Shown here: piece after piece, positions 22,657 to 54,069 of the stretch
How positions within the stretch are numbered: position 1 is the first letter of the stretch
Layout: the number at the start of each line of letters is the position of its first letter
From: Aquanectria penicillioides
Lineage: Eukaryota; Ascomycota; Sordariomycetes; Hypocreales; Nectriaceae
DNA length: 64,000 nucleotides
NCBI GenBank assembly: GCA_003415625.1
Contig: PYIU01000010.1
Span: 124,001-188,000 of the forward strand
Direction: 5' to 3'
Translations under genes and position numbers: made by a program
The notes under the pieces: model-generated
Told to the model about the DNA's origin: nothing
The model's database searches: none
What the model saw: the letters and a program-made list of their open reading frames with translations, nothing else

Positions 22657-23445
22657 TTTCCAAGAGGGCGACAGGTGTACCGGTAGTAATGCAAATGTGA
22701 GCGATGAAAAACACGAAACAAAAATAAAAGAACAAGACACAGAGGAAATCGCTCGGTATATAGAAGCTGGGGGAGAAAAAACTAGACTTAGGTTTGGTTA
22801 TGATGTGTCAGAGAAAGGCTTCTCTTACGAGTGCGATCCAAACGTGGAGCCTCCGGCCGGCCGCCGGCCATTCGCAACAACTTGTGCGGGAGTCCGATTT
22901 CTTCTTCCTCCACTCAACCTACGGGGCATCATGGACCGGGACATGTCACACACACTGCTAGCGGCCGCCGGCCCGTCTGGCAAACTTTGCCCAGTCTGCT
23001 CCTCCAATCGCTGGCACTAGATCCTCAATTGTGGAGTGTGCGAGTCTGGGCGTTGGGATTAGATCTAATTATGGGGCGGTGTGATGGAACTCATTACCAA
23101 ATAATTAAACCCATGGGTCTATTTCCTCTTCCGTCGGGATGGAAATGAGTCTTTTGCTCGTTAGACCCCAGTGTTGTGGTACATTCCAAATTCTTGTTAG
23201 GATTCAAGATCAGTTATAGCAATACCAGTTCGATTCTAAACCTAAAGAAGACTCGCAAGCAGTCAGGTTTTAGAGACATCAAAGTCAAACACAACAAGAC
23301 AATTATGGTGTGCTCGAGCAATATTTCGAGACAATGTATTTACATCTCCACTGAAATCAAGACAATGTCATATCTTGTCGTAGATAAAACAAGGTCGAAA
23401 TTATTAGCCATGCAGCTTACCGTGTTGACAAAGGATCTGTGTATT
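22657..23445. other. Intergenic, promoter side of the truncated permease
   Basis: Normal base composition. ORFs here on both strands are short and show no family features. A GC-rich patch at about 22,850-22,990 contains several near-palindromes (ccggccggccgccggcc; gcggccgccggc). No gene is supported. Confidence 0.5.
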
Positions 23446-28077: not shown

Positions 28078-29469
28078 CTATGGATAGTCCACAGCGGGAA
28101 TTCGATTCGGGTTGCCCGGTATCATAAATGGCAAAGGATTGTTCCATCTTGAGAACTTCCTTCCCTCCCAGACGTCCTCAACTGGCACCATCTTGCACAG
28201 TCGTGCCGCCACGATCTCATTCTCACGCCAAACCCTGCAAATTATTAGTAACACGAACATAAAGAGAGGTCCAACGCACCTGAGAAGATTTCCTCCAACG
28301 AGCTTCTTAATCTGTTCATCCGTAGCACCACGCTTCATCACGGCCTGGATGAGCTTGGGATAGTCTGCAACAGAATTGATGCCATTCGCCAAGGTCACGG
28401 TTCCATCGAAGTCCCCTCCAATGCCGACATGATCCCATCCAGCTACTTTGACTACATGCATAATATGATCCACTACAGAGTCAATGTTTGCGCTGTTTGG
28501 GTTCTTCGAGTTCAAAAATCGTTTCACGAACATGACCATGAGGATTCCTCCATTCTCCGTGAGTCGCGCGATGATATCATCGGGAACATTTCGATAATTA
28601 GCAGCAAGCTCATAACAAGTGCTATGACTGAAAATGACAGGTGAAGCCGTCATGTCCAACACCTGGCGCATGGTCTGATGGGAAGTATGTGAGAGGTCAA
28701 CCATCATCCCTAGGCGATTCATCTCACGGATACCTGCAGCTCCAAATTCTGTTAACCCTCCGTCCGCACCACCACTGGTCACCGTAGATGCGGCCGTTGC
28801 GTATGGATTGTCACAATTATGTGTGATGGTGATATATCGCACCCCAAGATCAAACAACTGCCGAATCACCGCTATTGACGAACCAGTTTGATGCAAACCT
28901 TCTGCGCCGAGCATGGAAGCTAGTTTCCCAGCCTTGAAAGCCGAGCTCACACATGCAGAGGTTTCGCAATACTGGAAATCATCGATTTCGTCGATGAATC
29001 GTCGTGCTACATCAATTTGCTCCAAGGTGTCTCGGACACTGTGGCTTGGATCATCATGATCTGTGGTTTCCGGACATTCAACGAAAACAGACCAGAATTG
29101 TCCACCAACTTGGCCTTCTTTCATTCTTTTCAAGTCTGTGTGACTTGCAAGGCCTAAAACTGGTGAACATAAAGGTCTGAGGCCTAGGAGTCAGATATTA
29201 CCATTGCGAAATGAAAAAGTATCATGATATATCTTGTTTTGAAGCTCGAGACGAAGCAAGTAGGGCAAATCATTGTGGCCATCGATTAGAGGCGTGGTGC
29301 TCAAGATCCTCTGCGTTCTCAAAAGATAATCTGTAGGTTCCACAAAGTTCGCATGCTTGTAGTACCCTGCGAATGCCAAAGCTATGCCGGCCACACCCGC
29401 AAGTACAAGCAAGGCGGACTGGGTCCGTGACGTATCTCGCTGTGAAGTCATGGTTGTTTGAAGTTGCAC
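28078..29469 (-). CDS. Membrane dipeptidase (peptidase family M19), signal-anchored
   Basis: Three exons, 426 aa, with introns at 29,136-29,201 (GTAATA...CACAG) and 28,235-28,279 (GTGCGT, branch TACTAAT, ...TGCAG). The N-terminus has one hydrophobic helix (about residues 20-40, SALLVLAGVAGIALAFAGYY), so the enzyme is probably a type II membrane protein or vacuolar/secretory. Zinc ligands of the M19 family are present: HND in LIDGHNDLPY, the bridging Glu in MLGAEGLHQ, and the two His in ITITHN and VIFSHST. GGDFDG near the C-terminus is also conserved. M19 enzymes cleave dipeptides such as Cys-Gly, and some fungal ones act on glutathione conjugates. It shares a divergent promoter with the cluster's Zn2Cys6 gene, and that promoter holds CCGATCGG and CCGACGTCGG palindromes, which suggests co-regulation. 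Confidence 0.88.
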
Positions 29470-29834
29470 TTTACAACGAAAATAGCCAATTCAACGTCAA
29501 TTATGGCCGTGTTAGGTTCTATTCTCGCGCCACCATGCTCATACTGAGCATCAGACATTTAGGCGTGTGATTCTATCCGTATGCCGATCGGTAACGCAAT
29601 GCCGACGTCGGTACGTACTGGCAGACAGCCAATGACAGGCACTGGCTTATTCTCAAGGCAAGTCTTATCTCCTATCACGTGACCACGTGGAGGGAATATC
29701 ATGTTTGCTCACGGCCAAGATCGGCCTGCAATCGCCGATGTAGGCCGTGGTTCGATTTAACAGACCAAGTTAGACTTATCATCCGGCTCCATTAGCCGGC
29801 CCCCTCATTCCGACTCACCTTTTGTCATCTCAAC
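29470..29834. promoter_or_regulatory. Divergent promoter: M19 dipeptidase (-) and Zn2Cys6 regulator (+)
   Basis: Contains CCGATCGG at 29,584-29,591, the perfect palindrome CCGACGTCGG at 29,602-29,611, and TCGGC (29,721-29,725) facing GCCGA (29,734-29,738) across 8 bases. Similar elements recur in the other promoters of the block, so these are probable operator sites for a Zn2Cys6 protein, possibly the adjacent one (autoregulation). Confidence 0.6.
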
Positions 29835-32134
29835 ATGGCCGAATCCAGCACGGACAGACCTGTAGCTGAGCCGAGTCGGAAAAGAAGGAAACGATCCTAC
29901 ATTGCGTATGCAGCTTTGCCCCGTTACTCGTTGTCCTGCTTATCTAATGGCTCCTAGTTGCGGTCGATGTCATGGTCTGAAGGTCAAGTGTTCTGGTGGC
30001 GTGCCGTGCCAAAGATGTCAGAGTGCGAGAAAGGCATCTTTGTGCGAGTATCCGTCACGCGAAAGACGCGTAACTGTTTTGGCAAGGTAAGGATACCGGT
30101 GATGCCATGTGCGAGTGCGGATAGATTATTCATAATGCCCCAGTTACCTGCATTGCCTGCAAAATAATAGTGCCGGGGGCCTGGCGGGTGATGATACCCT
30201 GGATCTTGCAGATGCTACAGCGCCGACAGCGCAGGACTCTCGCGCTGCCAGCCAATCCGTTGATCACGACATTAGCAATCCGATTCACGAGCCTCGGAGA
30301 ATCTTTCAATTGGATCAAGCCTCACAGCAGCAGTTTGTGGGCGAATCAACATGTCTCGCATTTGGAGACCGAATTTTGCAATGTCTCAGTCCGCAGTCCG
30401 TGACACCACCGGGGCTTCCAGATCATCAGTATGTTCGCGATCTAGTCTTTGCAAGACAAACTACAGTTGTTTCCGGGGTAAAACTTCCCGAACGCATACG
30501 GGCAAATCTTCTTGTTCGTGTCGCTCTTCGTTTCATTGGTCAGGATTACCACTTTTTTCTGCATCATGACTTTCTTCAGCGCCTGGAGAAGGCGTACGAG
30601 TCTGAAAGCCCTCCCAATGATCCCATCTGGGTTTGCAAGTTCTTTGCTGTCCTAGCACTGGGCGAACTATATTCGTGTTCGTCGCCATCGGCCAAAGACA
30701 ACCATACACCCTCAGTGCCGGGAACAAACTACTTTCTGACAGCAGTTGGCTTACTTCAAGATTTGTTCGAGGAGCCGTCCATCGCTCAAATCGAGACAAT
30801 GTTGCTTTTCGTAAGTCGCCACCCCTCACCTACGCCATGGTTTGCATCTAGGACACAGGTACATCGGATGGAAGACTTTGTTGTGGTCATCATCCCATCA
30901 TGTCGAGCGGCTAGAAAACATGCCGATCCGGACTGACAAGAAATAGTGCTTCTACTCAAATGCTCTTGGGAGGATAAAGTCTGCGCATATGTACAGCGGC
31001 ATGGCTATGCGGCTGAGCACTTGTCTTGGAATGCATAGAAACATTCCCGAAGGATCGATGTCGCCAACGGAGCGGGAACATCGGATTCGCCTATGGTGGA
31101 CCGTCTATGTCTTTGAAAGGTCGACCTGTTCAAAGCTCGGGCAACCTTTGACGATTCGTGATTCTGATATTGACGTTGGAATGCCTGGGTCTGAAATGTT
31201 TACGGCAGATAACAATCCGCAAAAGCTGGGCCAACCAGAGCACTTGATCGCACATATCAATCTGGCGCGTATCACCGGTTTGATCATGTCGGATTTGTAC
31301 TCGCCGTCTGCAAAAGCTAAAACTGGAAGATTTGTGCAAAATGTGCGTGCCATATTACAACAGCTGAGGAAATGGGATTCGCATGTTCCGGCAAACCTGC
31401 GATGGAAGCAAGAGGGCGGCGTACCACGATCCGTGGCGTCTCTGCAGTTGCATTATAACCAGTGCATTATATTGACCACGCGCCCCATCCTTCTCTATGT
31501 CCTCAAAGCCAGGAATCCCTTCGCCGCCACTGAAAATGGCCAGACCTCGATTTCAGATACAACAAGGTCCCTCGCTGATTCGTGCATATCTGCCGCTCGA
31601 ACCTCAAATACCATTCTGTCGCAGCTTTTCGTGGAAAACGCCTTGGCAACCTGTGGATACTTTGATGCACACCATTTATTCGCTTCTACCCTTGTGCTTA
31701 TAATCTCGGCGATCACATCTCCCAATTCCAGCGACTCCGATGCAGTTCAGACGGCTTTCCAACTGCTGATGATGATGCGTGATAACGGAAACCTTGCTGC
31801 TGGCGAATACTTTTCACGACTCGTCCAGATACAGTGGAGTGTCAGCCGACTATTCAGAGCAACAGCGGAAGACGCGGCAAATGAAGCATCAGCCGACACG
31901 GTGCCAAACATTCCGTCACCCAACCCGGCTCCAGAAACAATGGAGCTGGATAATTACAATTGGAGCACTTTTCTCATCCCAAACTCGTCCTATCCAAGCT
32001 ACGATGATGCAGGTGCTGGAAACATGAATGCAGACCCGTTGGATAATCCCTTACTACAAGCCTTTCTTGATCATACGGACAGCGTGGATGAAAACTCTGT
32101 TTTGACTGCTGAGGAAATGGGATTTGTGCTGTAG
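29835..32134 (+). CDS. Zn2Cys6 transcription factor, fungal-specific TF domain
   Basis: Four exons, predicted 675 aa. Introns are 29,906-29,957, 30,087-30,170 and 30,811-30,946; the total length is a multiple of three and all phases agree. The zinc cluster is split by intron 1. It reads AC-GRC-HGLKVKCSGG-PCQRC-...-C, the six Cys of a binuclear cluster, preceded by a basic KRRKR stretch. The middle region has the fungal_trans domain (PF04082 type), with MYSGMAMRLSTCLGMHRN and the following RIRLWWTVYVFERSTCSKLGQPLTI block. The C-terminus is acidic and Asn/Ser-rich, a probable activation region. It lies inside the catabolic block, and the block's promoters share CGG/CCG inverted repeats, so it is the obvious candidate for the pathway-specific activator. 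The inducer is unknown. Confidence 0.85.
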
Positions 32135-32239
32135 ATAATTTGATACATGCCCCATGACTTTTCTTTCCCAAAGTCTTCTTCAGAAAGAGTAAAGTACAGA
32201 ATGTATAGATAATTAGGTGTCTGATAGTTCTACCTCAGG

Positions 32240-33527
32240 CTATCTGCTCATCACTTGAATGATGGCTTGTGCAACATACTTAACATTCTCTTCGTTGACA
32301 CCGCTCAAGCTAGCTCGACCGTTGAGCATAAGATAAATATGATGAACTTGTCTCAGCTGCAAGACCTGATCCTGAGCCAAACCAGTATAGCTAAACATAC
32401 CAATCTGAGACTCGAGGTGGCTCCAATCACCAGCCGCGGTGCTCTTTTCAATCTCGTTTCTGAGAAGCGTTCTCATTCGTTTAATACGACCTGCCATAGT
32501 CTGCAGATCCTTCTGCCACATTTCCCTGAGTTTAGGGTCTGACAGAATTTTATGGACGATTCGACACCCAAACAGCGGAGCATTGGACATCTCTGCTCGT
32601 ACCAGCCGGAGTAATTGGCCTCTCGCACCTGCTGTCGGGGTTTCCGAAGGAAGGACGAGATGAAATGCACCTACACGTTCTCCGTACAGCCCAAAGTTTT
32701 TAGCAAATGACTGCGCGATACAAATTCCTTGGGGCTTGGCAACACATGAGTCAAAGATAATTTCTTGGAAGTGCCTTACAGCCCAAGCATCGGCATCCAA
32801 GTCTCCTGTAGCAAAGCCTTGGTACGCAGAGTCAAACAAAGCAAATAACCTTTTTCGCTTGACGAGTTGTGCTAGTGACTTCCACTGCTCTCTGGATGGA
32901 TCGACACCCGTTGGATTGTGAGCGCAGGCGTGTAAGATGATGACATCGTCCTCAACCGTCTCAGCCTCCAACGTTGACATCATGCCATCAAAGTCCAGTG
33001 AGCGTGTCGCACTGTCGTAGTACGGGTATGTTTTTTGAGTGACGTTTGGTGCTGCCATTGTCCAAACAAGATGATGGTTGCTCCAGGTAGGATCGGATAT
33101 AAAGACATGTCGGGGCTTTAATTGCTGGGCTAGGAATGCAGCTCCTAGGTGATTTGCACCTGTGCCCGATATTGTTTGGATTGAAACAGTGCTCGGACTA
33201 CATGATCCCAATATGAGTTCCTGTGCGACGTTGAGGAAAGCCTCAGACCCTTGGACAGGCAAATATTCATGATTCAACGCTTCCTCATGAAGAACTTTTT
33301 TAGCCTACGGCTAGTTAGCATTTTGAAGTTGCTGAGGTCAATATTCGTACTGCTTTCACGCTTGGAAGGATCCATGGTTCGGAATGTTCGTCCCTGTATA
33401 CCCCTGCCCCTAGACTAACTTTATTGATATCAGTATCGGCGTTAAAATCTGCCGTGATGGCAAACGCTTCGTCTCTGGGGATTTCGGGAATATCTGCGAG
33501 TTTGGCGGGCATGATAAGCTTGAACAA
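32240..33527 (-). CDS. Aspartate-type aminotransferase (class I, PLP)
   Basis: Two exons with an intron at 33,305-33,350 (GTACGA, branch TGCTAAC, ...CGTAG). Product is 413 aa from Met at 33,527, or 408 aa from the second Met at 33,512 (MPAKLADIP), which looks like the usual cytosolic start. Class I signatures of eukaryotic aspartate aminotransferase are clear: VSLGAGVYRDE near the N-terminus, LHACAHNPTGVDPS, and the PLP-lysine motif SFAKNFGLYGERVG. No mitochondrial presequence is obvious. It exchanges amino groups between an amino acid (Asp/Glu type) and a 2-oxo acid. Its promoter carries a GCCGATCGGC palindrome. In the cluster it could remove nitrogen from the amino acid released by the amidohydrolases. 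Confidence 0.87.
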
Positions 33528-33764
33528 AGCGTACGATAATGATATTTAGGTTAACCCTGAATAGCTTGAACAATGTTCCTATTGCGAAGCTAATGAGAAT
33601 ATTTATTAAAATGCTACACCCCTGGAGCGCATACTGATGGAATGAACTCAGTAGTACATCGGCTGCAGGCTCATTTGCCGATCGGCGATAACAACAAGGA
33701 AACCGACTGAGCAACGACCAATCGCATTGCGCAATGCTGTATTCATATCTTGTTACTCTTTGCT
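33528..33764 (-). promoter_or_regulatory. Promoter of the aminotransferase gene with GCCGATCGGC palindrome
   Basis: The 237 bp gap between the aminotransferase start and the end of the M20 gene contains the perfect 10 bp palindrome GCCGATCGGC at 33,677-33,686 and a half-site ATCGGC at 33,658-33,663, about 150 bp upstream of the start codon. It matches the element found in the other cluster promoters. Confidence 0.6.
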
Positions 33765-34872
33765 TCATTTGGATAACATCTCCAACACTAATCGCTTATA
33801 AACTGTCACGCATTCAATGAGGTCGGCAATAACGACCTGCTCTTTTTCTCCATGGGCGTGTAGGATGGACCCCGGGCCATAGAGATACTTTTTATGATCT
33901 CCATTGAGACGTTGGATATCTGTGCCAAATGAAACGGGCATCGAGTCCAATCCTAGTTAAAATATTAGTGTAATTCCAATCAAGTTATGCAGCCTACTTG
34001 CCTTCAAGCTGGTGATCAAGAAGCGTCTCCGGGTATGCGAATGATTTCTTCAACTTCACATCAGGGTATTTAGCCACAATTTCGAACACCTTCTTCTCGA
34101 TACTGGGCAGATTTGCAGCGACACGAATGCCACACAGAGCGTAAGCATCTGCAGCAAGAACATTGTATGCTACCCCGCCCTCAACCTTCCCACAGTTGAA
34201 TGTGGTCGGCCCGAGTAGCTCAGATGTAGGGAGGTCAAGGGCCTTGAGCTCTTCCAGAAGTGAAATGAGAATGGCTGTAGCACTTTTGCCTTTCTCGGGA
34301 TAACCTGAGTGACATGCAACGCCCGTTGCGAATAGCTCAAAGACGTAATGTCCCTTATGACCAGTGGCTAATTTTCCCTCGGTCGGTTCGCCAAAAATGA
34401 CAGCTTCCCAGCTGAGGTTCATGTCATTAGCTGCAAGCATTCCAGGCCCTCCTTTCTCCTCTCCCACGACGAAAAGCAACGAGACGTCGCCTGCTTTAAC
34501 CAACCCCTCAGCCCTTAGCTCTTCAAGTGCGACTATCTGAGCGGCCAAAGGGCCTTTGTCATCACAAGCCCCTCGGCCATAGATGATCCCATCTTTCATA
34601 GTCATAGGTATATGTGGCGGGACTGTGTCCATGTGAGAAGTGAGCAGAGTACGTGCTTCGCGTTTCTCTCCTAGATATGCATAGATATTGAGTCGATCAG
34701 ACCCCGGAGATATCGGGATGACTTCGACATTATACCCTAGATCTCTGAGGTACTTGTCGAGGAAGAGACCTATTTCGTGTTCCTCTTCGCTGATAGATGG
34801 AATATCCATCAATTGTTTGAGAAGATTCACAACAGGAGAGTCTGACATATTGAACAAAGGAGTTTCTTTCAA
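33765..34872 (-). CDS. M20-family amidohydrolase/peptidase (ArgE/DapE-like)
   Basis: Two exons separated by a 49-nt GC-AG intron at 33,953-34,001 (donor GCAAGT). Product is 352 aa, or 344 aa from the second Met (MSDSPVV), which starts the conserved part. Metal-site motifs of M20/ArgE-type enzymes are visible: SHMDTVPP (His and Asp), GRGACDDKGPLAA (bridging Asp), VVGEEKGGPG (catalytic and metal Glu), GEPTEGKLATGHKG, and a C-terminal SILHAHGEKE His. These enzymes hydrolyse N-acyl or N-carbamoyl amino acids or dipeptides. Acetylornithine deacetylase, carnosinase-like and carbamoyl-amino-acid hydrolase activities all use this fold, so the substrate is open. It is cytosolic (no signal). The promoter has TCGG (34,967) facing CCGA (34,981) and GCCGAC (35,094). 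Confidence 0.85.
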
Positions 34873-35347
34873 CTGAAGGCTTTGTAGTTCGAGTAGCTGT
34901 ATTGTTGAGAGCTATATGATACCCGTTGGGTGTCTTTTAAATGACAATTTCGAGCACAATCCAATGTCGGTATCCATTTGCCGAACCTGTAGTAGATCTT
35001 ATAGGCTTATCTCAAGTCTTCATCAGCTCAGATTATGCCCTGATGCCGTTGAAATGGTCGATAGGCATGCTAAAGTAATGGCAATGTACCGAAGCCGACA
35101 CGTGCATTCTTGACAGTGGTTACCACACTCACACTAGTCTCCCGCTACGCCTAAGTTGGAAAAATATCGCCATGACAAATTTTACAGGGAATATTCGAAA
35201 TGATATTTGCAATTATGATCAGGATCTGCTCCCCATATTTGATGGGGAAGTGTTTGCTATGTACTGTTGTGAACCTTGATGGATCGGATTTAGGCAAGTC
35301 TGAAAGTCCCGCCTAGACACTTTATGTGCTTTTATCCGTCGGCGCAA
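34873..35347. promoter_or_regulatory. Promoter of the M20 gene; also 3' flank of the MFS gene
   Basis: The spacer contains GTCGG at 34,966-34,970 facing CCGA at 34,981-34,984 (10 bp apart) and a single GCCGAC at 35,094-35,099. These are the same half-sites as elsewhere in the cluster, though the inverted pair is less perfect. No gene is seen. Confidence 0.45.
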
Positions 35348-37012: not shown

Positions 37013-37476
37013 GATGGCTGCGTATGGAAGGACAAGCTCTGAGGTGCTAGTCAGGAATATCCACAATGCTTCTTCACTCGCTTCCGTGCAGGCTGTCCAT
37101 GAAATATAGTTGCTCTCTGAAGCAAGCTACATCCGTCCCATGCCCTGCTAGTGATTGGTAGATTGATGCTATAGACCCACAAGAGATAAGCCCTCATAAG
37201 TAAAAGGAGATAAAGCGATGTCTATATCATGTCTCCTCTTATCTACAGGGATGCCAAGATAACAAATCAAGTAAAGTCGGCACCGTGGGCCGACATTTGG
37301 TCGGCATTCTAGTGCTTGGACCGATCGGCTTCTTGGGTCACTCCACTAGGAACACCCGTAATTGACGCCATCGTCAATTAATGGAATACGCATTGCACAT
37401 CAACCTTCATAAAAGGCCCTGGTCTACTTGTCTTAAGTGAAAGATCGAGCCAAAAACCCAATTTCCGAGATATACG
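37013..37476. promoter_or_regulatory. Divergent promoter: MFS transporter (-) and oxoprolinase (+)
   Basis: GTCGGC (37,276-37,281), GCCGAC (37,289-37,294) and GTCGGC (37,300-37,305) form two overlapping inverted repeats with 7 and 5 bp spacing. CCGATCGGC follows at 37,321-37,329. This is the densest set of the shared element and lies about 150-200 bp upstream of the oxoprolinase start. Confidence 0.7.
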
Positions 37477-40400
37477 ATGGCAGCACACGGCATTCGCATC
37501 GCCATCGATAGGGGCGGTACCTTTACTGATGCCTGGGCGTGGATCCCAGGAACTCAAGAAGAACTGGTCATCAAAGTTCTCTCACAATGCCCTGATGAAT
37601 ATGAAGATGCACCGACAGAGTGCATCCGGCAGATTCTGGAAACCGCCACCAATACCAAGATTCCTAGAGGAACGCTGCTAAACCTAGACCAAGTCGAATC
37701 AATTCGCATGGGTACAACTGTGGCAACAAATGCACTGTTGGAACGCAAGGGCGAACGAGCTGCGCTAGTGATCACCAAGGGATTCCGGGATATCTTGGAA
37801 ATCGGTAATCAGGCCCGACCTCATATCTTTGATCTATCAGTCCGCCGGATGGCCAAGTTGTACGATACCGTCTTGGAGGTCGATGAGCGTGTGACTATTG
37901 AGGGTTTTGCTGAAGACCCGGAGCCGAAGCGAATTGATGTCGACTCAGACCCTAACTTGACGATTGGATTAGCCGGTGAAGCTGTCCGCATCATCAAAGT
38001 TCCCGACTACGATGAAGTCTGTCGGGGTCTTTCCGGGCTATGGTCACAAGGGTATCGGAGTGTGGCTATCGCTATGATGCATTCGTATACTTACCAAGAC
38101 CACGAGCTTGGAATAGCCAAGGTTGCTCGACAACTAGGCTTTAGGGTTGCTGTATCTTCCGACCTCCAAAAAATGACCAAGATTGTGCCTCGAAGCCAGT
38201 CAGCGGTTGCCGATGCCTACCTTTCCCCAGTGACGGACAAGTATCTCGAGAGTTTTCGAAAAGGATTTGAAGGTCAACTTGAGGACCATAATGCCAACAA
38301 GCTGTTCTTAAACCAGTCGGATGGTGGACTCACGGCCTACACCAATTTTACCGGACTTCGAGGAGTGTTAAGTGGTCCAGCCGGCGGTGTGATAGGTCTC
38401 TCAAAGACTTGCTACGATGAGAAGGACGGGAGGCCTGTGTTAGGATTTGACAGTAAGTTGGAACCTAAAGAGTATCTATCTTGACTAACAACTCGCAGTG
38501 GGCGGCACTAGCACTGATGTTGCGCGCTATGCCGGATCTTTGGAGCACATCTTCGAAAACACTATCGCTGAAGTTACTATTCAGACCCCACAGCTGGACA
38601 TTAACACCGTTGCAGCAGGCGGTGGCTCGATTCTAACGTGGCAGAATGGACTTTTCAAAGTCGGCCCGGGTAGTGCCGGTGCCAACCCTGGCCCAGCCTG
38701 CTACGGCCGAGGCGGTCCGCTTACAGTGACGGATGCGAACTTCTTCCTTGGAAGGATCGTGCCAGATCTTTTCCCTCGACCTCTCGATTATGACATCGTC
38801 CAAAAGAAGTTCACTGAGATCACTGATGCTATCAACCTGACCAAACAAGGAGACACAGAGTTCACACCGGAAGAAGTAGCCATGGGATTTCTCATGGTTG
38901 CGAATACTACAATGTCGAGACCAATCAGAACCCTCAGTGAGGGACGTGGCTTCGAAACAGGAGCCCATAATCTGGGATGTTTTGGAGGTGCCGGTGGTCA
39001 GCATGCTGTCGCTGTAGCACGAGACTTGGGGATCAGACACGTCATTATTCCTCGCTACTCAAGCATTCTATCTGCGTATGGTATGGCCCTTGCCGACGTT
39101 GTGGTGGAGAATCAAGAACCAGAATCACAAACATTCTCAGGGGAAGCATTCAAGACGTTACAGAGCCGACTTGATAGGCTTTTCGCCAAAGGTCGAGAAG
39201 GGCTGATGTCTCAAGGGTTCAACGAAGATGAGATTCGACACGAGTCATTCCTAAATATGAGATATCAAGGTAGCGATACATCCTTGATGATCCAGCATCC
39301 AGGGAAACTCTGTGACTTCGGCGAAGCATTCATCGCTCGTCACCATCAAGAGTTTGGCTTTACGCAACCTCGAGACATTATAGTTGACGACGTCAGAGTG
39401 CGTAGCATTGGCAAGGGTGCAGACCTCAAGCTGGCCAACCCCTTCGAAGACATGCGAACAGTTCAGTCTTCACCACCAGTTACTCCGGTGAAGCCCCAGT
39501 CCATGCGAAAGGTCTATTTCGAAAACCAAGGCTGGACAGAAACTGGCCTCCATTTCCTTGGTAGCCTCCCAGTCGGAGCACGCGTCAGAGGACCTGCAAT
39601 GGTTGTTGATAAGACTCAGACTATTGTGGTAGACCCATCTAGTTCAGCCGTAATCCTGTCTGAACATCTTATGCTTGAAATATTGGATGTTGAGCGGCCT
39701 GAGATTGCCACAAATGTGGTAGACCCGGTGCAGCTGAGCATTTTCGGTAACCGGTTTATGAGTGTGGCGGAGCAAATGGGGCAGACGATGCAAAAGACGT
39801 CTATTTCAGTCAATATCAAGGAGAGACTCGATTTCTCCTGTGCTGTGTTTTCCGCAAGCGGTGGATTGGTTGCAAATGCGCCACATATCCCAGGACACTT
39901 AGGCTCCATGAGTTATGCTGTTGCATACCAAGCAAATCTCTATGGCCCTGGAGAGCTAAAACCCGGCGATGTTCTGCTTAGCAACCACCCTAGGGCTGGA
40001 GGAACCCATTTGCCAGATCTTACAGTTACTACACCAGTTTTTGATGAGAATGATCCATCAAGAATCCTCTTCTTTGTTGCAAATCGAGGCCATCACGCTG
40101 ATATTGGCGGAATTCAGCCTGGGTCTATGCCTCCGAATTCAACAGAGCTGTGGCAGGAAGGTGTTGCCGTCGAGACGTTCAAGATTGTTAAAGAGGGTGC
40201 CTTCGATGAGGCCGGTCTCCACGAGATTTTGGTCGATATCCCCGCTTCCTACCCAGGCTGCAGCGGGACCAGGACTCTCAAGGACAATATTGCGGATCTC
40301 AAAGCAGCTATTGCTTCAAATAACCGCGGAATTCAACTCATCAACGCCTTGGTCAAAGACTATTCCTGGCCTGTGGTTGAGTTCTATATGGAAGCCATCC

Positions 40401-41510
40401 AGAACAATGCCGCACAGGCTGTGCGAGAGTTGCTCAAGATATTTTCGAAGCGATTCGAAGGTCAGGATCTAAGCGCGACAGATTACCTCGACGATGGCAC
40501 GCCTATTTCGTTGAGAATTGAAATTGACAGCGAGACCGGCGACGCTGTCTTTGATTTTGAAGGAACTGGGCATGAACACTACGGCAACCTCAACTGTCCT
40601 CCGGCCGTAATGCTTTCCGGTATCATGGTAAGTCCAAACCAAAGGAGAATTCTGTAACATATACTAACAACTTCAGTATTGCTTGCGATCTATGATCGCC
40701 ACAGAGACGCCTCTCAATCAAGGCTGCCTCGCACCGATCAAGCTCAAACTTCCCAAAGATTCGATTCTTTCACCATCCTTGAAGGCAGCAACAGTTGGCT
40801 CCAACGTTGAGACGTCACAGCGAATTGTTGATCTGGTCTTCAAAGCCTTCCAGGCTTGTGCAGCGTCCCAAGGTACCTGCAATAACCTGACATTTGGATA
40901 TGGCGGTACAGACGCGGATTCTGGAAAGGTGACTAACGGCTTTGGATACTACGAAACCATCGCTGGAGGCTCAGGTGCTGGCGCGGATTGGGAAGGTGAA
41001 AGCGGAGTACACACTCATGTCACCAACACACGAATTTCCGACCCAGAGATCTTTGAGCGCCGTTACCCTGTTCTTCTTCACGAGTTCTCCATTCGACATG
41101 GAAGTGGCGGCCCAGGACTGAACCGGGGTGGTAACGGATGTGTTAGAGATATCGAGTTCCGTATGCCCCTGCAAGTATCCATCCTTTCGGAACGTCGAGT
41201 GATTGCGCCTTACGGAATGGCAGGCGGCGATGAAGGCAAACGAGGTCTCAACTTGTGGATACGACGGGATCAAGAGGATGGGACTACACGGACAATCAAC
41301 CTGGGTGGGAAGGCAACTACTCAGATGAATGCTGGAGATAGGATCATTGTTCTCACGCCGGGAGGAGGCGGATACGGTAGAGATCCGACCAAGGTGGACG
41401 CCAAGGAGCTATTCGGAGCCTTCAAGATTGGGGAGAAATTTTCAAACGCCGCTCTAGCTAGGAATAACGGCAGCGTGGCTCAGAGAAACGCTGTTGCCAC
41501 AGGTAATTAG
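37477..41510 (+). CDS. 5-oxoprolinase / ATP-dependent hydantoinase (HyuA-HyuB fusion)
   Basis: Three exons, predicted 1,312 aa. Introns are 38,453-38,498 (GTAAGT...TCGCAG) and 40,628-40,676 (GTAAGT, branch TACTAAC, ...TTCAG). The order is Hydant_A N-terminal domain with the phosphate-binding IDRGGTFTDAWAW at residues 10-22, then the hydantoinase A domain with a second actin-like motif FDMGGTSTDVARY directly after intron 1. The hydantoinase B domain follows, with HPRAGGTHLPDLTV, RGHHADIGG and the closing LTPGGGGYGRD. Length equals that of eukaryotic 5-oxoprolinases (about 1,280-1,300 aa), which open 5-oxo-L-proline with ATP to glutamate. The bacterial relatives open hydantoins to N-carbamoyl amino acids. 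The neighbouring carbamoylase-like and D-amino-acid genes make a hydantoin-type substrate worth testing. It is cytosolic. Confidence 0.9.
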
Positions 41511-42070
41511 TTGGAGCTTTATCAAAATTGGCAATTTTAAATGCTTTTCTTAGAATATGAGATTATGTGAGGGTTGATAACTTTATCCAAGTGTATAAGC
41601 TGCATCGCATGTTTGATCTTATCAAACTAGGTATTTTTCAGGCGACGTAAGGCGCTGCCTTGTCCAATCGAGCGAAGTTTCGGTACACTCGTATTAGAGT
41701 ACAAGCCAGGAAACCAATCCAGTCTACATACTCCAGAAATCGAACGCAACAATTCAAAATGACGCGTGTAGTTCTGCATTACCAAAGGCCGATGTAACTC
41801 TAGTTATCAGCTTGGCGGGGAAATCGACTCATGCGATAAGCATGGAAGCAAGTTCCCGACATCGGCCATTCGGAGCCGACATTGTCGGCACAATCATCGA
41901 TGGACAATTACCCCGTATCTCCATTGCCGATTCTTATCTGCTGGTACTATCTAGAGCGAGAAGAAATGCCGAGTTATACTATAGCTTGTACGGAGACGAA
42001 GTTGGGTTTCATTATATCCCTGCTAACACTGACCTCTTGATTTCGCAAATTTCCCTCCGAGACCGACAAC
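41511..42070 (+). promoter_or_regulatory. Intergenic; promoter of the 2-hydroxyacid dehydrogenase
   Basis: Contains ATCGGC (41,861-41,866), GCCGAC-ATT-GTCGGC (41,875-41,889, a perfect inverted repeat) and GCCGAT (41,926-41,931), 140-210 bp before the start codon. A 103-codon plus-strand frame at 41,812-42,123 overlaps the gene start and is not supported. Confidence 0.65.
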
Positions 42071-43105
42071 ATGGCCGCAAAACCCGATGTCCTTCTCATC
42101 GAGTCCACTGTTCAAGCAACTGATGACGCTCGTCGTCGCGCCCTCTCGGAGAGGTTCAACTTCATCCAGTACGACTGTGAATCAATAGAACAGTTCAAGC
42201 AACGCATGCAACCAGGCGGACCTTATGCCAATATCGTGGCAATTGTCCGAAATGGCTGGCTGAAAGCCGGCCCACTTGCATATTTGGTTCCCTTTGCCTC
42301 CCATGTCGTGCCACATTACCCACCGTCTCTGAAGCTCATATGCTGTAGTGGCCATGGGCATGACACGGCTGATGTCGAAGCCATAACAGCGAAGGGGATA
42401 TGGTATTGCAATACGCCAAATGCATGCACTGAGGCTGTTGCCAATACTGCATTGTCTCTTGTTCTTGACTCCTTTCGCTTCTTTACCTATGCACAATGGT
42501 GTGCCAGATTCGATTGGATGGAAAGTCGGGCCTTAGGCTTGCAGTCAGTTGATCCGACATCCAAGTCGCTTGGTGTGGTTGGATTGGGGGACATTGGGTT
42601 GGCTATTGCTCAGAAATGCGAGGCTTCGTTCAATATGAGGATTCACTATCATGGACCCCGACCAAAGCCAGGGGCGGAAAAGTTGTTGAAAGGAGGAACG
42701 CAGTACCATTCAACGGTGGAAGACATGATTCCTCACGTTGACTGCATTGTCCTTGCTGCGCCATATACCAAAGACACGCACCATCTACTGGCCAAGGAGC
42801 AGTTTTCTTTGGCGAAGAAGGAAGGTATCAGAGTCGTCAATATTGCTAGAGGCAAAATGGTAGACGAGGACGCCTTGTTAGAAGCACTTGAGAATGGAAA
42901 GGTCGTCGGTGTAGGTCTTGATGTACACGCCAACGAACCTGGCATAAACCCGAAATTACGGGACAATTGGCGAGTTACGGTTCTACCACACATAGGTGTT
43001 TGCTCAGGTACAAGCTGGGAGAACTTTGAGAAAGTAAATCTTGATAACTTAGAGGCGTTCTTTGATACAGGGAAGCCGATTACGCCTGTCAATTATGTTG
43101 AGTAG
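42071..43105 (+). CDS. D-2-hydroxyacid dehydrogenase (glyoxylate/hydroxypyruvate reductase-like)
   Basis: Intronless, 344 aa. The Rossmann motif GVVGLGDIGLAIAQ is followed by a second-strand segment HGPRPKPGA, whose Arg/Lys instead of Asp suggests NADPH. Catalytic residues of the family are present: Arg in VVNIARGKMVDEDAL, Glu in LDVHANEPG, and His in LPHIGVCSG. Enzymes of this type reduce 2-oxo acids to D-2-hydroxy acids or run the reverse reaction, in cytosol or peroxisome. No peroxisomal tail is seen (ends ITPVNYVE). In this setting it may reduce the 2-oxo acid made by the neighbouring D-amino-acid oxidase or aminotransferase. Its promoter has one of the best inverted repeats in the cluster. 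Confidence 0.88.
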   Translation: MAAKPDVLLIESTVQATDDARRRALSERFNFIQYDCESIEQFKQRMQPGGPYANIVAIVRNGWLKAGPLAYLVPFASHVVPHYPPSLKLICCSGHGHDTADVEAITAKGIWYCNTPNACTEAVANTALSLVLDSFRFFTYAQWCARFDWMESRALGLQSVDPTSKSLGVVGLGDIGLAIAQKCEASFNMRIHYHGPRPKPGAEKLLKGGTQYHSTVEDMIPHVDCIVLAAPYTKDTHHLLAKEQFSLAKKEGIRVVNIARGKMVDEDALLEALENGKVVGVGLDVHANEPGINPKLRDNWRVTVLPHIGVCSGTSWENFEKVNLDNLEAFFDTGKPITPVNYVE

Positions 43106-43468
43106 GAATCACGAAATCCACAAACAGTAGAATAGTCCTATAGAGTCAATGCATTGACGCGATAAACATCAAGCTTTTGCAAGAATTATTATTATCGACT
43201 CGCCGACACCAGGCGAATCTCGCTCTTTTCGGTGCATCACGTAATAAGATCTCAATCGGCTGTATACTGACTTGTTCACGGCCTGCTCTACCCGATTGTA
43301 GTCGGTTAATCAAATCTTGGCTGCCCTCTGTGCGGTTTGCCTGAGTAATCTTATAACCCCCCCCCCCCCCCTGCTAGTATCAAGAAAGGAGCGAGCCTAC
43401 GTACCCCGAATTGAGGAAAAATCTTGCATCGACCAGCAGCCATAGCCAATTGGAAGATTCGCAACAAG
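43106..43468 (+). promoter_or_regulatory. Promoter of the D-amino-acid oxidase gene
   Basis: Half-sites GCCGAC (43,202-43,207) and ATCGGC (43,255-43,260), and an inverted pair CCGA-N6-TCGG (43,292-43,305), lie 160-270 bp upstream of the start. A run of 15 C residues occupies about 43,357-43,371, between these sites and the start codon. Confidence 0.6.
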
Positions 43469-44763
43469 ATGCGTGAGTTGAAAAATAACCCATGGAGAAG
43501 TTCACCGCTAACTACATTTGCAGCATTCTTTTTAGTTATCGGGGCTGGTGTCGTGGGACTGACAACAGCGCTTGAGCTTCGAGCTAGGCACCCAGACGCT
43601 TCGATCGTTGTAGCAGCAAAGTTTCTCCCTGGCGACTCTGCGCCGGACTATGCATCAGCCTGGGGAGGTGCAAACTGGTTCCCAGCTTCGAGAGACAATG
43701 GCCGCCAGGAAGATTGGGAAGCTATTACGTACCGGAAGTTCAAGGAGCTTTCGTCATCGCGACCGGAATGTGGCATCCGACCCATGGACATTCGGTGGCA
43801 CTACGAGGACCAAATTGAAAACGTGGGCATCCTGACCCCTGCCACCGGGAAACTGTGGTTTGAGGAGCTTGTTGGTGGCCTGAAGAAGATTGCCGAACAA
43901 GATTTACCAGATGGAACTGCGTTTGGATTTGAGATGGCCAGTTTTGTCATTGATGTACAAAAATATCTGCCATGGTATGTTAGTATGGGATGCCCTCGAA
44001 GATCTGAACTAAATTACCTAGGCTTCAAACCGAATTGACGAAATTCGGCATTGACATACACCGGCGAGTTTTCACTCACATCAAAGACGCCTTTCGTCTT
44101 TACCCAGAAACAACAGCCGTCTTCAACTGCACGGGCTTGGGGGCGTTGACATTGGGCGGGGTAGAGGACAAGAAGATGTTCGCTGCAAGGGTAGGCACTA
44201 GAAACTCGCCCTTGTAATGATGCTCACACATGCGCAGGGTCAGATTCTTCTAGTGGAAGGCCCCGAGACACCCATTCGTAAAATGGCTTTCCGGGCGCCA
44301 CACCGCGATGGTGAGGCTACTCACATCTTCCCGCGAGGGGAGAATGGTCGCGGGGGCGTCATACTGGGAGGTTGCCGACAGAAACATAACTGGGATGGCG
44401 AAACCGACATGGACTTTGCAGAAGTTATCAAGAAGCGCTGCTGTGCTTTAGTACCAGAACTTGGAAGTCCTGAGGATCTCAAGCTAATCAAGCACGGCGT
44501 GGGACTCCGCCGTACGTACTGTGAATAGGTGCTACAAAGCTCGAAGCTAACATAGGCCCTAGCTGGAAGAGAAGGTGGCTCTCGAGTTGAATCCGAAACC
44601 ATGGACGGCAAGTTGGTCATTCACAACTATGGTGCTGGAGGAACAGGTTTTCAAGCTTCCTGGTATGCTCTTCGACACTAGCACTAACACAGAGGCTAAC
44701 AAACCAATAAGGGGGTTAGCCAAGTACGCTGTAGACCTTCTCCCTCTAAAGGCACGAATTTAG
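43469..44763 (+). CDS. D-amino-acid oxidase (FAD)
   Basis: Six exons, predicted 349 aa. Introns are 43,473-43,523, 43,975-44,021, 44,191-44,237, 44,512-44,562 and 44,663-44,711; all phases fit. Exon 1 is only ATGC. The next exon begins the FAD-binding strand, giving MPFFLVIGAGVVGLTTALEL with the GxGxxG motif. Then come SAWGGANWFP, the FNCTGLGALTLGG segment, GQILLVEGP and the C-terminal signature reading GLRPGREGG...HNYGAGGTGFQASWG, the family's second FAD/substrate region. The enzyme oxidises D-amino acids to 2-oxo acids, ammonia and hydrogen peroxide. The C-terminus KARI resembles but does not match a peroxisomal PTS1 (S/A-K/R-L/M), so peroxisomal import is possible but not certain. A family-typical Arg for substrate carboxylate lies in the GLRPGRE region. 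Confidence 0.88.
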
Positions 44764-45625
44764 CATTCTAGTTGAAAGGAGTAAGGTTTATTCAGGCGGA
44801 GGGACTCCAGGCTTCAGCACAGCTAAAACCGACGGAGGATGGTAAACGACTACAGGGTAGGTGAATTAGGTACAAATAAAACGCCGAATGTCGATATCAC
44901 GCGCTCATCGAAGATGATACCACTGGATTGGGAGCAATCGGTACAGGGTCAATGGACTTATTCGTGAATCTAGACATGATTGTATAACACCCTTCATAGT
45001 ACAAAGTCAGCCAATCTCAACACCAAGGATTGCCTTGCGAAACACCCCAGGTAGGTTATTTGCGGCAGTTTCTCTGCTTCTTGCATGTTTCTAGTTCATC
45101 AACTCGGCTTCGTTTTTATGGGCGATGTATTTTACAAGCGGAATGCCCCCTTGTACGATTTTCCAACCATGTATTTATTCACTTTTTCTTTACCTTGAAC
45201 TTCCGCATTTCTCACTTTACGGCATCGTTTTTGTTCCAACTGATATCTGTGTTCTCCCATCCATCCCAGCCTGAGTTTGCGTCTCCCATTTACTGTACTA
45301 TAATTATTCAACATATCTCAAGTTAGCATTTCAATGCAAATGAATTAGACCATTGCAGTTTGACCATCTTCTTCGCTATCGTTTATCTATCATCCTTGAC
45401 GACGTATTTCAGTGCGTAATCACACTGTCGGCAAATACCCCGCCATCGGCTGGCTCATGCCGATCCACTGTCATAATTGTCGGCCCACAATCACGGCTTC
45501 GATAGCTATGCTTATCAATAACATGTTACTTGTCAAAGAAACCCTGCATAAATTGCCTCCCTTTCACGCTGATAAAGAAGATCGGAGGCGTCAAATCCAA
45601 GAGATACTCATTATATCTTATCGCC
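44764..45625 (+). promoter_or_regulatory. Intergenic; promoter of the carbamoylase-like gene
   Basis: The distal part (44,764-45,400) shows no gene; the ORFs at 45,030-45,326 are not family-like. Close to the start, GTCGGC (45,427-45,432), ATCGGC-N8-GCCGAT (45,445-45,464, a perfect 6 bp inverted repeat) and GTCGGC (45,479-45,484) form a dense set, 140-200 bp upstream of the ATG at 45,626. Confidence 0.6.
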
Positions 45626-46755
45626 ATGGGTGTGGCATCAAGGCCATTGACGGTTGCTGCGGCCCAGCTGGGCCCGGTAAGGAGTCTAAGTACGCCACGC
45701 TTAGAGACCTTGGCTCGAATGATCAAGCTCCTCGAGGAAGCCGCGGAAAAGGAAGTTAGATTGGTAATCTTCCCAGAACTTTGCTTCACGACTTTCTTTC
45801 CATCCTACATTATAGAAGACCCCCAGAAAATTGCAGAATTCTTTGAGCCTGCATCCCCCTCAGACCCCTTTGCAATCGTCAAATCGCCCAATGCCGAACC
45901 ACTTATTGACAAGGCCAACGAACTTGGAATTGATATATCCTTTGGCTATGCAGAGCGTTGGGAAGATGAAGATGGGAACATCACCGACTACAACACCGCG
46001 ATATATTACTCGTCCACCCAACGCCAGTGTGTCGCAAAGTACAGGAAGGTTCATCTTCCTGGTCGCTACGAACCAGACACACGGCCTGGGGTGACCCAAC
46101 AGCTAGAGAAGCGATATTTTAAGCCTGGTGACCTTGGATTTCAAGCATTCAGAGTGCCAGGGCTGATAGAAGGGACTCTGAGAGCCGAAGATGCTGAAAA
46201 TGGTGGCCCAGCAAGTGAAACCGAAGGAAAGGGTGATCCGATTCTGGGCATGTTGATCTGCAACGACCGCCGATGGGCTGAAGGCTGGAGGTCCTATGGA
46301 TTGCAAGGCATAGAACTTCTGGTGGTAAGCAATTAGCCACGATCGGCATTTTCAGGGCGAGAGTTTACTCACATTCAAACTAGGAGGGCTATAATACTAC
46401 TGCGTTCGCCCCTCAGTATGAAGGAACCGACGCCGAGCAAGAAGAGGAAGCTCTCTTCCATCATCGTCTTTCTTGTCAAGCGGGAAGTTACCAGAATGCA
46501 TGTTATAGCATTCATGCAGCCAAAGCTGGCAAGGAGGATCATGGATCGTTAATTGCAGGGTCGAGTATTGTCGACCCAAATGGGCATATTATTGCTGAAT
46601 CTAAAACTAAAGGTGATGAGCTTGTCTATGCAACTATCGACTTGGCAAAATGCAGAAAAGGAAAAGAACGGGTCTTTGCTTTTGATAAGCATAGAAGAGT
46701 GGAACATTATTCCCGCCTAGTTAGCCAAATCGGGGTACAAGAGCCACCTCTATAA
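45626..46755 (+). CDS. N-carbamoyl-D-amino-acid hydrolase-like enzyme (nitrilase superfamily)
   Basis: Two exons, 356 aa, with an intron at 46,325-46,383 (GTAAGC...AACTAG). The Glu-Lys-Cys triad of the nitrilase superfamily is in place: Glu in VIFPELCFTTFFP, Lys in KYRKVHLPG and Cys in MLICNDRRWAEGWR. The string ICNDRRW is the hallmark of D-carbamoylases. The conserved EGYNTTAFAPQYEG segment directly follows the intron. Such enzymes hydrolyse N-carbamoyl-D-amino acids to D-amino acids, CO2 and ammonia. I place the start at MGVASRPLTVAAAQLGP, since the frame further upstream is not family-like. Together with the oxoprolinase/hydantoinase and D-amino-acid oxidase it gives a complete hydantoin-to-2-oxo-acid route on paper. 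Confidence 0.87.
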
Positions 46756-54000: not shown

Positions 54001-54069
54001 GGGTTGACAGATGATGAGCTGAGGAACGTCGCTAATGGCCTGAAGGCTATTTCAAAGACAGCTGAGTGA
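51007..54069 (+). pseudogene. Patatin-NACHT NLR (nucleotide-binding receptor), disrupted
   Basis: The order matches fungal NLRs with a patatin N-domain and a NACHT domain. The patatin part is spliced by introns 51,228-51,281 and 51,525-51,574. It shows the oxyanion DGGGVRGLSSL, nucleophile GGTSTGG and catalytic-Asp motif VDGALGVNNP. The NACHT part shows GFLWVSADP leading to the P-loop at about 52,485-52,508, and Walker B as CVLDAFDECEE. A winged-helix-like region follows with LPMSVNSAYENILSKSR and VYFLHQTAREFLL. Lesions are a 23 bp tandem duplication at 51,885-51,930 that shifts the frame, a stop near 52,396-52,399, a P-loop reading DPGCAKS instead of GCGKS, a TAG at 53,085-53,087 (Gln position), and a frameshift near 53,200. 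No C-terminal TPR, ANK or WD repeats remain; it ends at 54,069. Such receptors act in heterokaryon incompatibility and programmed cell death. Confidence 0.82.
51885..51930 (+). repeat. 23 bp perfect tandem duplication in the patatin domain
   Basis: Two adjacent copies of a 23 bp unit beginning gaggagaacgcattgaagct, at 51,885-51,907 and 51,908-51,930. Because 23 is not a multiple of three, the reading frame after VSIGTGKQNTH is lost. With one copy removed the frame would continue into LTKTVLQITLETEDAARKF, a normal patatin C-terminal part. The copies are identical, so the event looks recent. Confidence 0.9.

Follow-up and report, generated by a model that had tools for sequence, protein, structure and literature searches.

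A candidate co-regulated gene cluster for the catabolism of cyclic and N-carbamoyl D-amino acids in the fungus Aquanectria penicillioides

Hydantoinases of the HyuA/HyuB type need ATP. In Pseudomonas sp. NS671, the hyuA-hyuB-hyuC genes are presented as encoding ring opening by HyuA and HyuB, then hydrolysis of the N-carbamoyl group (PMC8453981). The genes of the hydantoinase process encode a D-hydantoinase, a hydantoin racemase, and a D-carbamoylase, and the eukaryotic 5-oxoprolinases OPLAH and OXP1, involved in glutathione turnover, are single chains of four domains. Fungi can have many paralogues of this oxoprolinase/hydantoinase family, most of them with no established function that we are aware of. 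The nine-gene locus described here resembles hyuA-hyuB-hyuC in the predicted order of ATP-dependent ring opening and N-carbamoyl hydrolysis. Unlike it, HyuA and HyuB are fused, the carbamoylase is a D-type CN hydrolase, the set also contains an oxidase and an aminotransferase, and there is neither a racemase nor a HyuC-type M20 enzyme. A D-carbamoylase-type gene is shared with the hydantoinase process, but the cluster combines it with an ATP-dependent enzyme of the oxoprolinase type instead of the dihydropyrimidinase type and, again, with no racemase. Like OPLAH and OXP1, the oxoprolinase is a single chain of four domains; unlike them, it is encoded beside D-carbamoylase- and D-amino-acid-oxidase-type genes, at one of ten Hydantoinase_B loci in the genome. 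We consider it an even call that these genes act together, under common regulation, in the catabolism of cyclic and N-capped (N-carbamoyl) D-amino acids.

The window, the whole 64,000-nucleotide stretch analyzed, occupies kilobases 124–188 of contig C2 in a genome of 53.8 Mb. The nine genes span 28078..46755, the interval given in the preliminary description, which had recognized nine adjacent genes of the families listed in table 1. Intact models could be built for all nine, free of internal stops and with splice sites that follow the consensus (one of them GC-AG), and Pfam supports the family assignment of each protein. A 21-kb AT-rich block adjoins the cluster. In protein searches, the closest relatives of the CN hydrolase and the oxoprolinase were found in Thelonectria olida (Nectriaceae), and the ITS of the genome appears hypocrealean, whereas the preliminary description had looked to Eurotiales.

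Table 1. Genes and everted promoter elements of the nine-gene locus, with positions in the window
Feature	Position	Strand	Details
M19 membrane dipeptidase, 426 aa	28078..29451	-	3 exons, hydrophobic N-terminus; PF01244, E 1.3e-104
Two everted CCGA..TCGG elements	29584..29611	.	M19 / regulator promoter
Zn2Cys6 regulator, 684 aa	29835..32134	+	4 exons; PF00172, PF04082
Aspartate-type aminotransferase, 408 aa	32240..33512	-	2 exons
CCGATCGG, everted element	33678..33685	.	Aminotransferase promoter
M20 metallohydrolase, ArgE/DapE type, 344 aa	33765..34848	-	2 exons, GC-AG intron
Major facilitator (MFS) permease, 493 aa	35351..37012	-	5 exons; PF07690
Two everted elements	37290..37328	.	Permease / oxoprolinase promoter
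5-oxoprolinase/ATP-dependent hydantoinase, HyuA+HyuB fused, 1312 aa	37477..41510	+	3 exons
Two everted elements	41856..41888	.	D2HDH promoter
D-2-hydroxyacid dehydrogenase (D2HDH), 344 aa	42071..43105	+	Single exon; Pfam
Everted element	43292..43305	.	Oxidase promoter
FAD D-amino-acid oxidase (DAAO) family, 349 aa	43469..44763	+	6 exons; D-aspartate-oxidase-like arginines
CN hydrolase, N-carbamoyl-D-amino-acid hydrolase type, 356 aa	45626..46755	+	2 exons

The assignment of the CN hydrolase to the D-carbamoylase type is well supported and agrees with the initial proposal; its predicted substrates are N-carbamoyl-D-amino acids. The ICNDRRW motif begins at residue 211, and both the Glu-Lys-Cys triad and the CNDRRW site, which we take to be the carboxylate site, are present. 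D-carbamoylases account for the 11 best of 20 matches with solved structures. On the other side, eight NCBIfam families matched the protein, all below their cut-offs, though none of these eight is a D-carbamoylase model. Genomic context favors the D-carbamoylase type, since bacterial relatives often lie beside a hydantoinase and a racemase, as does the protein's own paralogue. Among 80 bacterial loci encoding relatives of 42–49% identity, a dihydropyrimidinase-type hydantoinase occurs in 33, an Asp/Glu/hydantoin racemase in 37, and both in 24. HyuA and HyuB occur together in only four of the 80, and relatives of the cluster's oxidase or aminotransferase in none at E 1e-8, some of these loci being only 3–5 kb long. 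The exact combination thus has no bacterial precedent in this 80-locus sample, and on that basis we rejected the idea that all nine genes came from bacteria. The paralogue, 60% identical to the cluster CN hydrolase, lies near 953–961 kb of contig C2 in the company of genes for an Asp/Glu/hydantoin racemase and a D-hydantoinase-like protein, a set of the hydantoinase-process kind. This second, more classical set qualifies the earlier view that the cluster has no described fungal counterpart; among the open-licence PMC papers listed, and as far as their titles and abstract openings go, we found none on a fungal cluster like that of the nine genes.

The identification of the 1,312-aa protein as an oxoprolinase/ATP-dependent hydantoinase is supported by its Hydant_A_N, Hydantoinase_A, Hydant_A_C, and Hydantoinase_B domains, all above cut-off, and by the intact ATP motifs given in PMC8453981, two for phosphate and one for adenosine: DRGGTFTD (residue 11), DMGGTSTD (325), and GANPGP (386). 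By our own assignment, NHPRAGGTHLPD (821) and GHHAD (856) would provide metal-site histidines. We know of no residue diagnostic for hydantoin versus 5-oxoproline, and the sequence appears to fit either ring substrate. The main rival reading is a salvage of 5-oxoproline, glutathione, or small peptides, in which the M19 enzyme would cut peptides, the oxoprolinase convert pyroglutamate to glutamate, the aminotransferase use this glutamate, and the CN hydrolase act as a general amidase. It is consistent with the best solved relatives of the M19 dipeptidase, which are entries of gliJ, presumably a Cys-Gly dipeptidase, and with an oxoprolinase paralogue on contig C13 adjoining an aminotransferase gene whose product is 41% identical to that of the cluster. 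The fused architecture is also that of 5-oxoprolinases, hydantoinases being described as unfused (PMC8453981). However, N-methylhydantoinase 7hk5, which is the best match with a solved structure (aligned over residues 7–1279), is a single chain too, so fusion is no proof of oxoprolinase activity. The nine genes include neither a gamma-glutamyl transferase nor a cyclotransferase, and salvage leaves unexplained both the D-carbamoylase-type enzyme and its sharing of contigs with the oxidase in other fungi. We judge salvage unlikely.

The oxidase belongs to the D-amino-acid oxidase family, as first proposed, and can be refined further. Its residues R231, R255, and R299 align with R216, R237, and R278 of human D-aspartate oxidase, and R231 and R255 are kept in all 16 cluster-clade orthologues. 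The roles of these arginines in D-aspartate oxidase are those given in PMC8260693. Arginines of this type point to acidic D-amino acids. This acidic reading is weakened by four observations. Unlike in D-aspartate oxidase, the equivalent of Tyr223 is a histidine (His237), again in 16/16 cluster-clade orthologues; the column of R231 (Arg216) sits in a gapped loop; the solved D-aspartate oxidase 9vpf has a methionine at the position of R255; and the Rasamsonia DAAO, which has neither arginine, is reported still to oxidize D-Glu (PMC6697736). D2HDH is nearest to D-mandelate dehydrogenase (2w2k) and so gives no pointer to acidic substrates. The oxidase ends in ARI, which we take to be PTS1-like as in D-aspartate oxidase, and is probably peroxisomal.

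The aminotransferase matches its yeast aspartate-specific counterpart (1yaa) at E 4e-109, an alignment in which we presume the residue roles. The only NCBIfam cut-off it passes, 377 bits, belongs to a model named "aromatic amino acid transaminase" (NF006719; score 398), a point against our reading. We rejected a D-amino-acid transaminase identity, as the alignment is with aspartate aminotransferases. The aspartate type announced initially stands, with its role moved downstream and no longer on the D-amino acid itself. The M20 enzyme had been credited with removing an N-substituent. Its best matches are ArgE/DapE deacylases, and no hydantoinase or carbamoylase model is among the best 25 of its 47 matches; N-acyl removal is kept as a proposal and an identity as a HyuC-type L-carbamoylase is dropped. 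The permease was labeled Dal5-like in the preliminary description; yeast Dal5 is described as carrying allantoate and ureidosuccinate and as required for growth on N-acetyl-L-glutamate; the same source reports dipeptide transport, in favor of salvage (PMC1342634).

The intergenic regions of the cluster share an everted element, CCGA-N0-9-TCGG. It was first spotted by eye in these same sequences, so that its P value is post hoc: eight copies occur in 3,491 bp between genes against 0.40 expected from 60 dinucleotide-model resamples. Among 256 tetramers, CCGA ranks first as half-site for enrichment of everted elements between genes. Promoters of seven of the nine genes carry the element. Elsewhere in the window, there is one copy in the 15.2-kb gene span, one in the 16.9 kb to the right, and none in the 27.9 kb to the left, which is mostly AT-rich; the genome mean is 0.127/kb. 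The sites CCGATCGG and CCGACATTGTCGG are candidate targets of the regulator's zinc cluster. A paralogue of this regulator on contig C1 adjoins the closest oxoprolinase paralogue. With the shorter half-site CCGA|TCGG, another locus equals the cluster promoter, and the C1 promoter shares the value 8 with several others; the cluster and C1 promoters both come out on top only with the longer GCCGA|TCGGC. The closest permease paralogue also lies on C1 (7.943 Mb), but we rejected its membership in a paralogous oxoprolinase cluster, since about 13 kb containing other ORFs separate it from the regulator paralogue and no further homologue of a cluster gene was found there.

In 11 other fungi, two or three of the orthologues of the CN hydrolase, oxoprolinase, and oxidase share a contig, as judged from identical longest-contig sizes of 90% protein clusters and some locus tags, contigs of several Mb being weak evidence of linkage. 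All three share a contig in Stachybotrys elegans. CN hydrolase and oxoprolinase do so in T. olida, Ilyonectria destructans, Neonectria ditissima, and Apiospora phragmitis; oxoprolinase and oxidase in Paecilomyces lecythidis (tags 001607 and 001613), Fusarium fujikuroi, and Talaromyces pinophilus; CN hydrolase and oxidase in Phialemonium thermophilum (9903 and 9902), Periconia digitata, and Penicillium hispanicum (000163 and 000167). The CN hydrolase and a D-amino-acid-oxidase relative are on one contig in eight other fungi, in half of them through a lower-identity pair. The 120 matches listed include no cluster-type oxidase from T. olida or N. ditissima. Of the synteny that the preliminary description proposed as a check, shared contigs are seen for the three genes surveyed; for D2HDH, linkage is suggested by a single Curvularia kusanoi model in which a stretch resembling D2HDH (63% over 197 residues) is joined to the oxidase.

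The distribution is patchy, and the CN hydrolase tree contains cross-class groupings in common with the oxoprolinase and oxidase trees, which suggests that the three genes were transferred as a unit. Patchiness and cross-class groupings would also suit a cluster for the detoxification or use of one natural product or xenobiotic (a cyclic D-amino-acid peptide, lactam, or ureide), the named reactions being then only family resemblances. The proximity of D2HDH to D-mandelate dehydrogenase and the location 124–188 kb from the contig start, beside the AT-rich block, fit this scenario as well. However, the nine genes include no oxidative tailoring enzyme (P450 or monooxygenase) and are all compatible with primary nitrogen catabolism, and we hold it to be improbable. 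MFS, Zn2Cys6, and FAD-dependent oxidoreductase families are common in filamentous fungi and could become neighbors by chance. The promoter element, the same-contig orthologues in 11 fungi, and the common tree groupings argue for more than chance adjacency, and a set of unrelated genes is hardly credible. Apparently, the nine genes form one catabolic, co-regulated cluster.

Under the reading of cyclic and N-capped substrates of the D-series, the steps can be ordered by inference as follows. Uptake of an anionic N-substituted amino acid, hydantoin, or lactam would be the task of the permease, and D-amino acids or dipeptides may be supplied outside the cell by the anchored M19 dipeptidase. The oxoprolinase would open the five-membered ring with ATP and the CN hydrolase strip the carbamoyl group from the N-carbamoyl-D-amino acid, while the M20 enzyme would take off another N-acyl group. 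The FAD oxidase would convert the D-amino acid to a 2-oxo acid and NH3, the aminotransferase and D2HDH disposing of the 2-oxo acid. This retains, from the single hydantoin/N-carbamoyl-D-amino-acid route first proposed, a co-regulated catabolic set with a D-carbamoylase-type enzyme, and changes the roles of the M20 enzyme and the aminotransferase. Six PF01177 (Asp/Glu/hydantoin racemase) matches were found in the genome and none in the window; the lack of a racemase among the nine genes and an M20 enzyme not of the L-carbamoylase type count against a hydantoin-type reading. Given the three arginines of the oxidase and the aspartate-type aminotransferase, our leading specific guess is that the products are acidic, D-Asp or D-Glu yielding oxaloacetate or 2-oxoglutarate. 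More tentatively, and less likely than not, the cluster is a horizontally moving fungal regulon. Its substrates would be acidic lactams or cyclic ureides, such as hydantoin-5-acetate, hydantoin-5-propionate, or D-pyroglutamate; these would become N-carbamoyl-D-Asp or -D-Glu, then D-Asp or D-Glu, and reach central metabolism by way of a D-aspartate-type oxidase located in peroxisomes and the aspartate aminotransferase.

If correct, these predictions would add a eukaryotic gene cluster to the known settings of hydantoin and D-amino-acid catabolism, with ring opening by an ATPase of the oxoprolinase type; in bacterial D-carbamoylase loci, a dihydropyrimidinase-type hydantoinase is the more frequent partner. 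The cluster may yield eukaryotic D-carbamoylases and D-aspartate-type oxidases for biotechnology. By linking one of the ten paralogous oxoprolinase/hydantoinase loci of this genome with enzymes of the D-carbamoylase and D-amino-acid-oxidase types, it offers a direct handle on the function of these paralogues.

The nine gene models of the cluster carry consensus introns and no internal stops, and they span 28078 to 46755, as the preliminary description had proposed; its oxoprolinase length (1,312 aa) and its ICNDRRW motif likewise proved correct. Pfam searches confirmed M19, Zn2Cys6 plus Fungal_trans, MFS_1, M20, Aminotran_1_2, four hydantoinase domains, 2-hydroxyacid dehydrogenase, DAO, and CN_hydrolase. 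The genome comprises 53.8 Mb in 13 contigs, the window being C2:124001-188000. Window positions 1-21700 form an AT-rich block (GC 0.17-0.26) without ORFs of at least 130 aa before 21.6 kb. At its edge, an amino-acid permease ORF (21688-22797) matches the Pfam profile over its first half only. At 51501-54069, a patatin-like ORF precedes an NPHP3_N ORF, an order seen in fungal NLR-like proteins.

Protein searches with the CN hydrolase, the oxoprolinase, and the oxidase (120 matches listed each) gave as closest relatives Thelonectria olida (Nectriaceae) for the first two (87% and 90%, respectively) and Ilyonectria robusta for the oxidase (82%), which makes Hypocreales a more probable placement of the genome than Eurotiales. 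Among the matches listed, at least two of the three genes share a contig, as judged from identical longest-contig sizes and locus tags, in 11 fungi: T. olida, Ilyonectria destructans, Neonectria ditissima, Apiospora phragmitis, Paecilomyces lecythidis, Fusarium fujikuroi, Talaromyces pinophilus, Phialemonium thermophilum, Periconia digitata, Penicillium hispanicum, and Stachybotrys elegans, the last with all three together. Because the matches are 90% clusters, the contig assigned to a species may in fact come from one of its close relatives. Locus tags indicate close spacing in P. lecythidis (001607/001613), Phialemonium (9903/9902), and P. hispanicum (000163/000167). Two linked sets include more distant homologues (T. 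pinophilus oxoprolinase, 73%; P. hispanicum CN hydrolase, 56%), and a second, lower-identity CN hydrolase/oxidase pair lies on common contigs in Aspergillus steynii, Pleurostoma richardsiae, Geosmithia morbida, and A. ellipticus. One predicted protein of Curvularia kusanoi combines the oxidase with a stretch of D-2-hydroxyacid dehydrogenase (D2HDH; 63% over 197 residues), probably because gene prediction or assembly merged two neighbors. As counter-cases, two of the genes fell on different contigs in several other species, e.g., Microdochium trichocladiopsis and Penicillium salamii, where paralogues, strain differences, or faulty gene models may account for the separation. For T. olida and N. 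ditissima, the 120 oxidase matches listed include none of the cluster type. The P. hispanicum oxidase orthologue (P0251) is predicted as a fusion to a PF01042 domain of RidA type. As an imine deaminase, this part would complete D-amino-acid oxidation; the fusion may be a gene-prediction join.

Trees were built from hand-picked samples of the matches (39, 27, and 22 of 120 for oxoprolinase, CN hydrolase, and oxidase, respectively), each with the window protein. In the CN hydrolase tree, Fusarium (Hypocreales) falls with two Dothideomycetes, Periconia and Exserohilum (100/100), and the oxidase tree again unites it with Periconia (100/99); the oxoprolinase sample included no Periconia sequence. 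Parastagonospora (Dothideomycetes) joins Apiospora (Sordariomycetes) in the CN hydrolase tree (100/99), and Apiospora, Colletotrichum, and Microdochium in the oxoprolinase tree (100). Phialemonium, from another order of Sordariomycetes, falls with Neonectria and Ilyonectria in both (98/97 and 98); its grouping with Ilyonectria is weak for the oxidase (87/52). For P. lecythidis (Eurotiales), the oxoprolinase tree gives Stachybotrys chartarum as partner (99), and the CN hydrolase tree gives no resolved position. These groupings fit with the set moving as a unit; loss combined with old duplications could also have produced them.

CCGA/TCGG half-sites are abundant in the cluster spacers, many as everted pairs. 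The 3,491 bp of intergenic cluster DNA contain the element CCGA-N0-9-TCGG 8 times, against 0.40 expected from 60 dinucleotide-model resamples, and it ranks first among all 256 tetramers put through the same test; the P value of 2.5e-8 is post hoc, because the element was first spotted by eye in these very sequences. Elsewhere in the window, we counted one in the 15.2-kb gene span, one in the 16.9 kb to the right, and none in the 27.9 kb, mostly AT-rich, to the left. The genome mean is 0.127/kb, with no genome-wide enrichment over the reversed control (6,825 vs. 9,826). The eight sites lie in the M19/regulator, aminotransferase, permease/oxoprolinase, D2HDH, and oxidase promoters, which serve seven of the nine genes; in the promoters of M20 and the CN hydrolase there are half-sites and no such everted pair. 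A partly independent check of the candidate element comes from contig C1, where the closest oxoprolinase paralogue (68% over larger pieces; L018 3048-4216, about 7.926-7.927 Mb) and a paralogue of the cluster's regulator (32-41% by piece) form a head-to-head pair. Their shared promoter contains six GCCGA/TCGGC half-sites in 250 bp and ties with the cluster D2HDH promoter for the highest density among 9,581 windows over 242 kb; with a looser half-site, it is unremarkable. Another oxoprolinase paralogue (L026 2081-3003; C3, about 312-313 kb) faces a permease related to that of the cluster across a region with repeated CCGAG-type half-sites (CCGA/TCGG 18.4 per kb vs. 7.9 in the 20 loci), and a further one (L023 5549-9983; C13, about 343.5-348 kb) adjoins an aminotransferase gene (41% identity to the cluster's). 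We consider it very likely that the cluster is a real catabolic regulon.

The CN hydrolase is predicted to be of D-carbamoylase type: the best 11 of its 20 solved relatives are D-carbamoylases and the catalytic motifs are intact; its NCBIfam matches are all under the cut-off. A two-motif scan confirmed at least 563 bacterial or archaeal relatives. In the DNA around the best 80 loci (42-49% identity), a dihydropyrimidinase-type hydantoinase is encoded in 33, an Asp/Glu/hydantoin racemase in 37, and both in 24; HyuA plus HyuB occur in four, and a cluster-type oxidase or aminotransferase in none at E 1e-8. The only close paralogue in the genome (next match, 28%) lies near a D-hydantoinase-like gene, whose NCBIfam matches, scanned in two pieces, are under the cut-off, and a racemase. 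This region (L027/L028, C2:944000-963999) is a putative second hydantoin locus in this fungus, of a more classical kind; farther along, at C2:968.6 kb, is a fragment of a permease related to that of the cluster.

Genes of the putative second hydantoin locus on contig C2
Feature	Position	Remark
Zn2Cys6-type regulator ORF	about C2:951-961 kb	by eye
D-carbamoylase paralogue	C2:953.4-954.5 kb	60% to cluster CN hydrolase
D-hydantoinase-like amidohydrolase	about C2:951-961 kb	
2-oxoglutarate oxygenase look-alike	about C2:951-961 kb	by eye
Asp/Glu/hydantoin racemase	about C2:951-961 kb	PF01177
Ketopantoate-reductase-like gene	about C2:951-961 kb	

The oxidase C-termini are mostly PTS1-like. According to excerpts of PMC8260693, human D-aspartate oxidase binds its substrate through Arg216 (side-chain carboxylate), Arg237 (gate), and Arg278. 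The cluster oxidase has arginine at all three aligned positions (R231, R255, and R299). All 16 close orthologues share the first two, which recur in 94 and 98, respectively, of 104 further matches; both are absent from the Rhodotorula and Rasamsonia D-amino-acid oxidases. Against a D-aspartate-oxidase type, however, His replaces Tyr223, R231 falls in a loop with alignment gaps, and Met takes the R255 position in a further D-aspartate oxidase of solved structure. The Rasamsonia enzyme, which lacks these arginines yet oxidizes D-Glu (PMC6697736, in excerpt), is a further point against the arginine argument.

The M20 protein is ArgE/DapE-like, and the D2HDH is nearest to D-mandelate dehydrogenase, with a best other match in the genome of 35%. 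Yeast aspartate aminotransferase is the nearest match to the cluster aminotransferase, in which the dicarboxylate-binding residues are present; the NCBIfam model that it passes, however, bears the name aromatic amino acid transaminase. Yeast Dal5 transports allantoate, ureidosuccinate, and some di/tripeptides, and is required for growth on N-acetyl-L-glutamate (excerpts of PMC1342634 and PMC2329640). By analogy, this range would suit import of N-capped acidic amino acids, if the permease is Dal5-like, as labeled in the preliminary description. The main rival explanation, salvage of pyroglutamate or peptides by these genes, seems to us rather improbable. In our best reading, to which we give about an even chance, the cluster handles cyclic or N-carbamoyl D-amino acids; an acidic version of this D-amino-acid reading is attractive and less certain.
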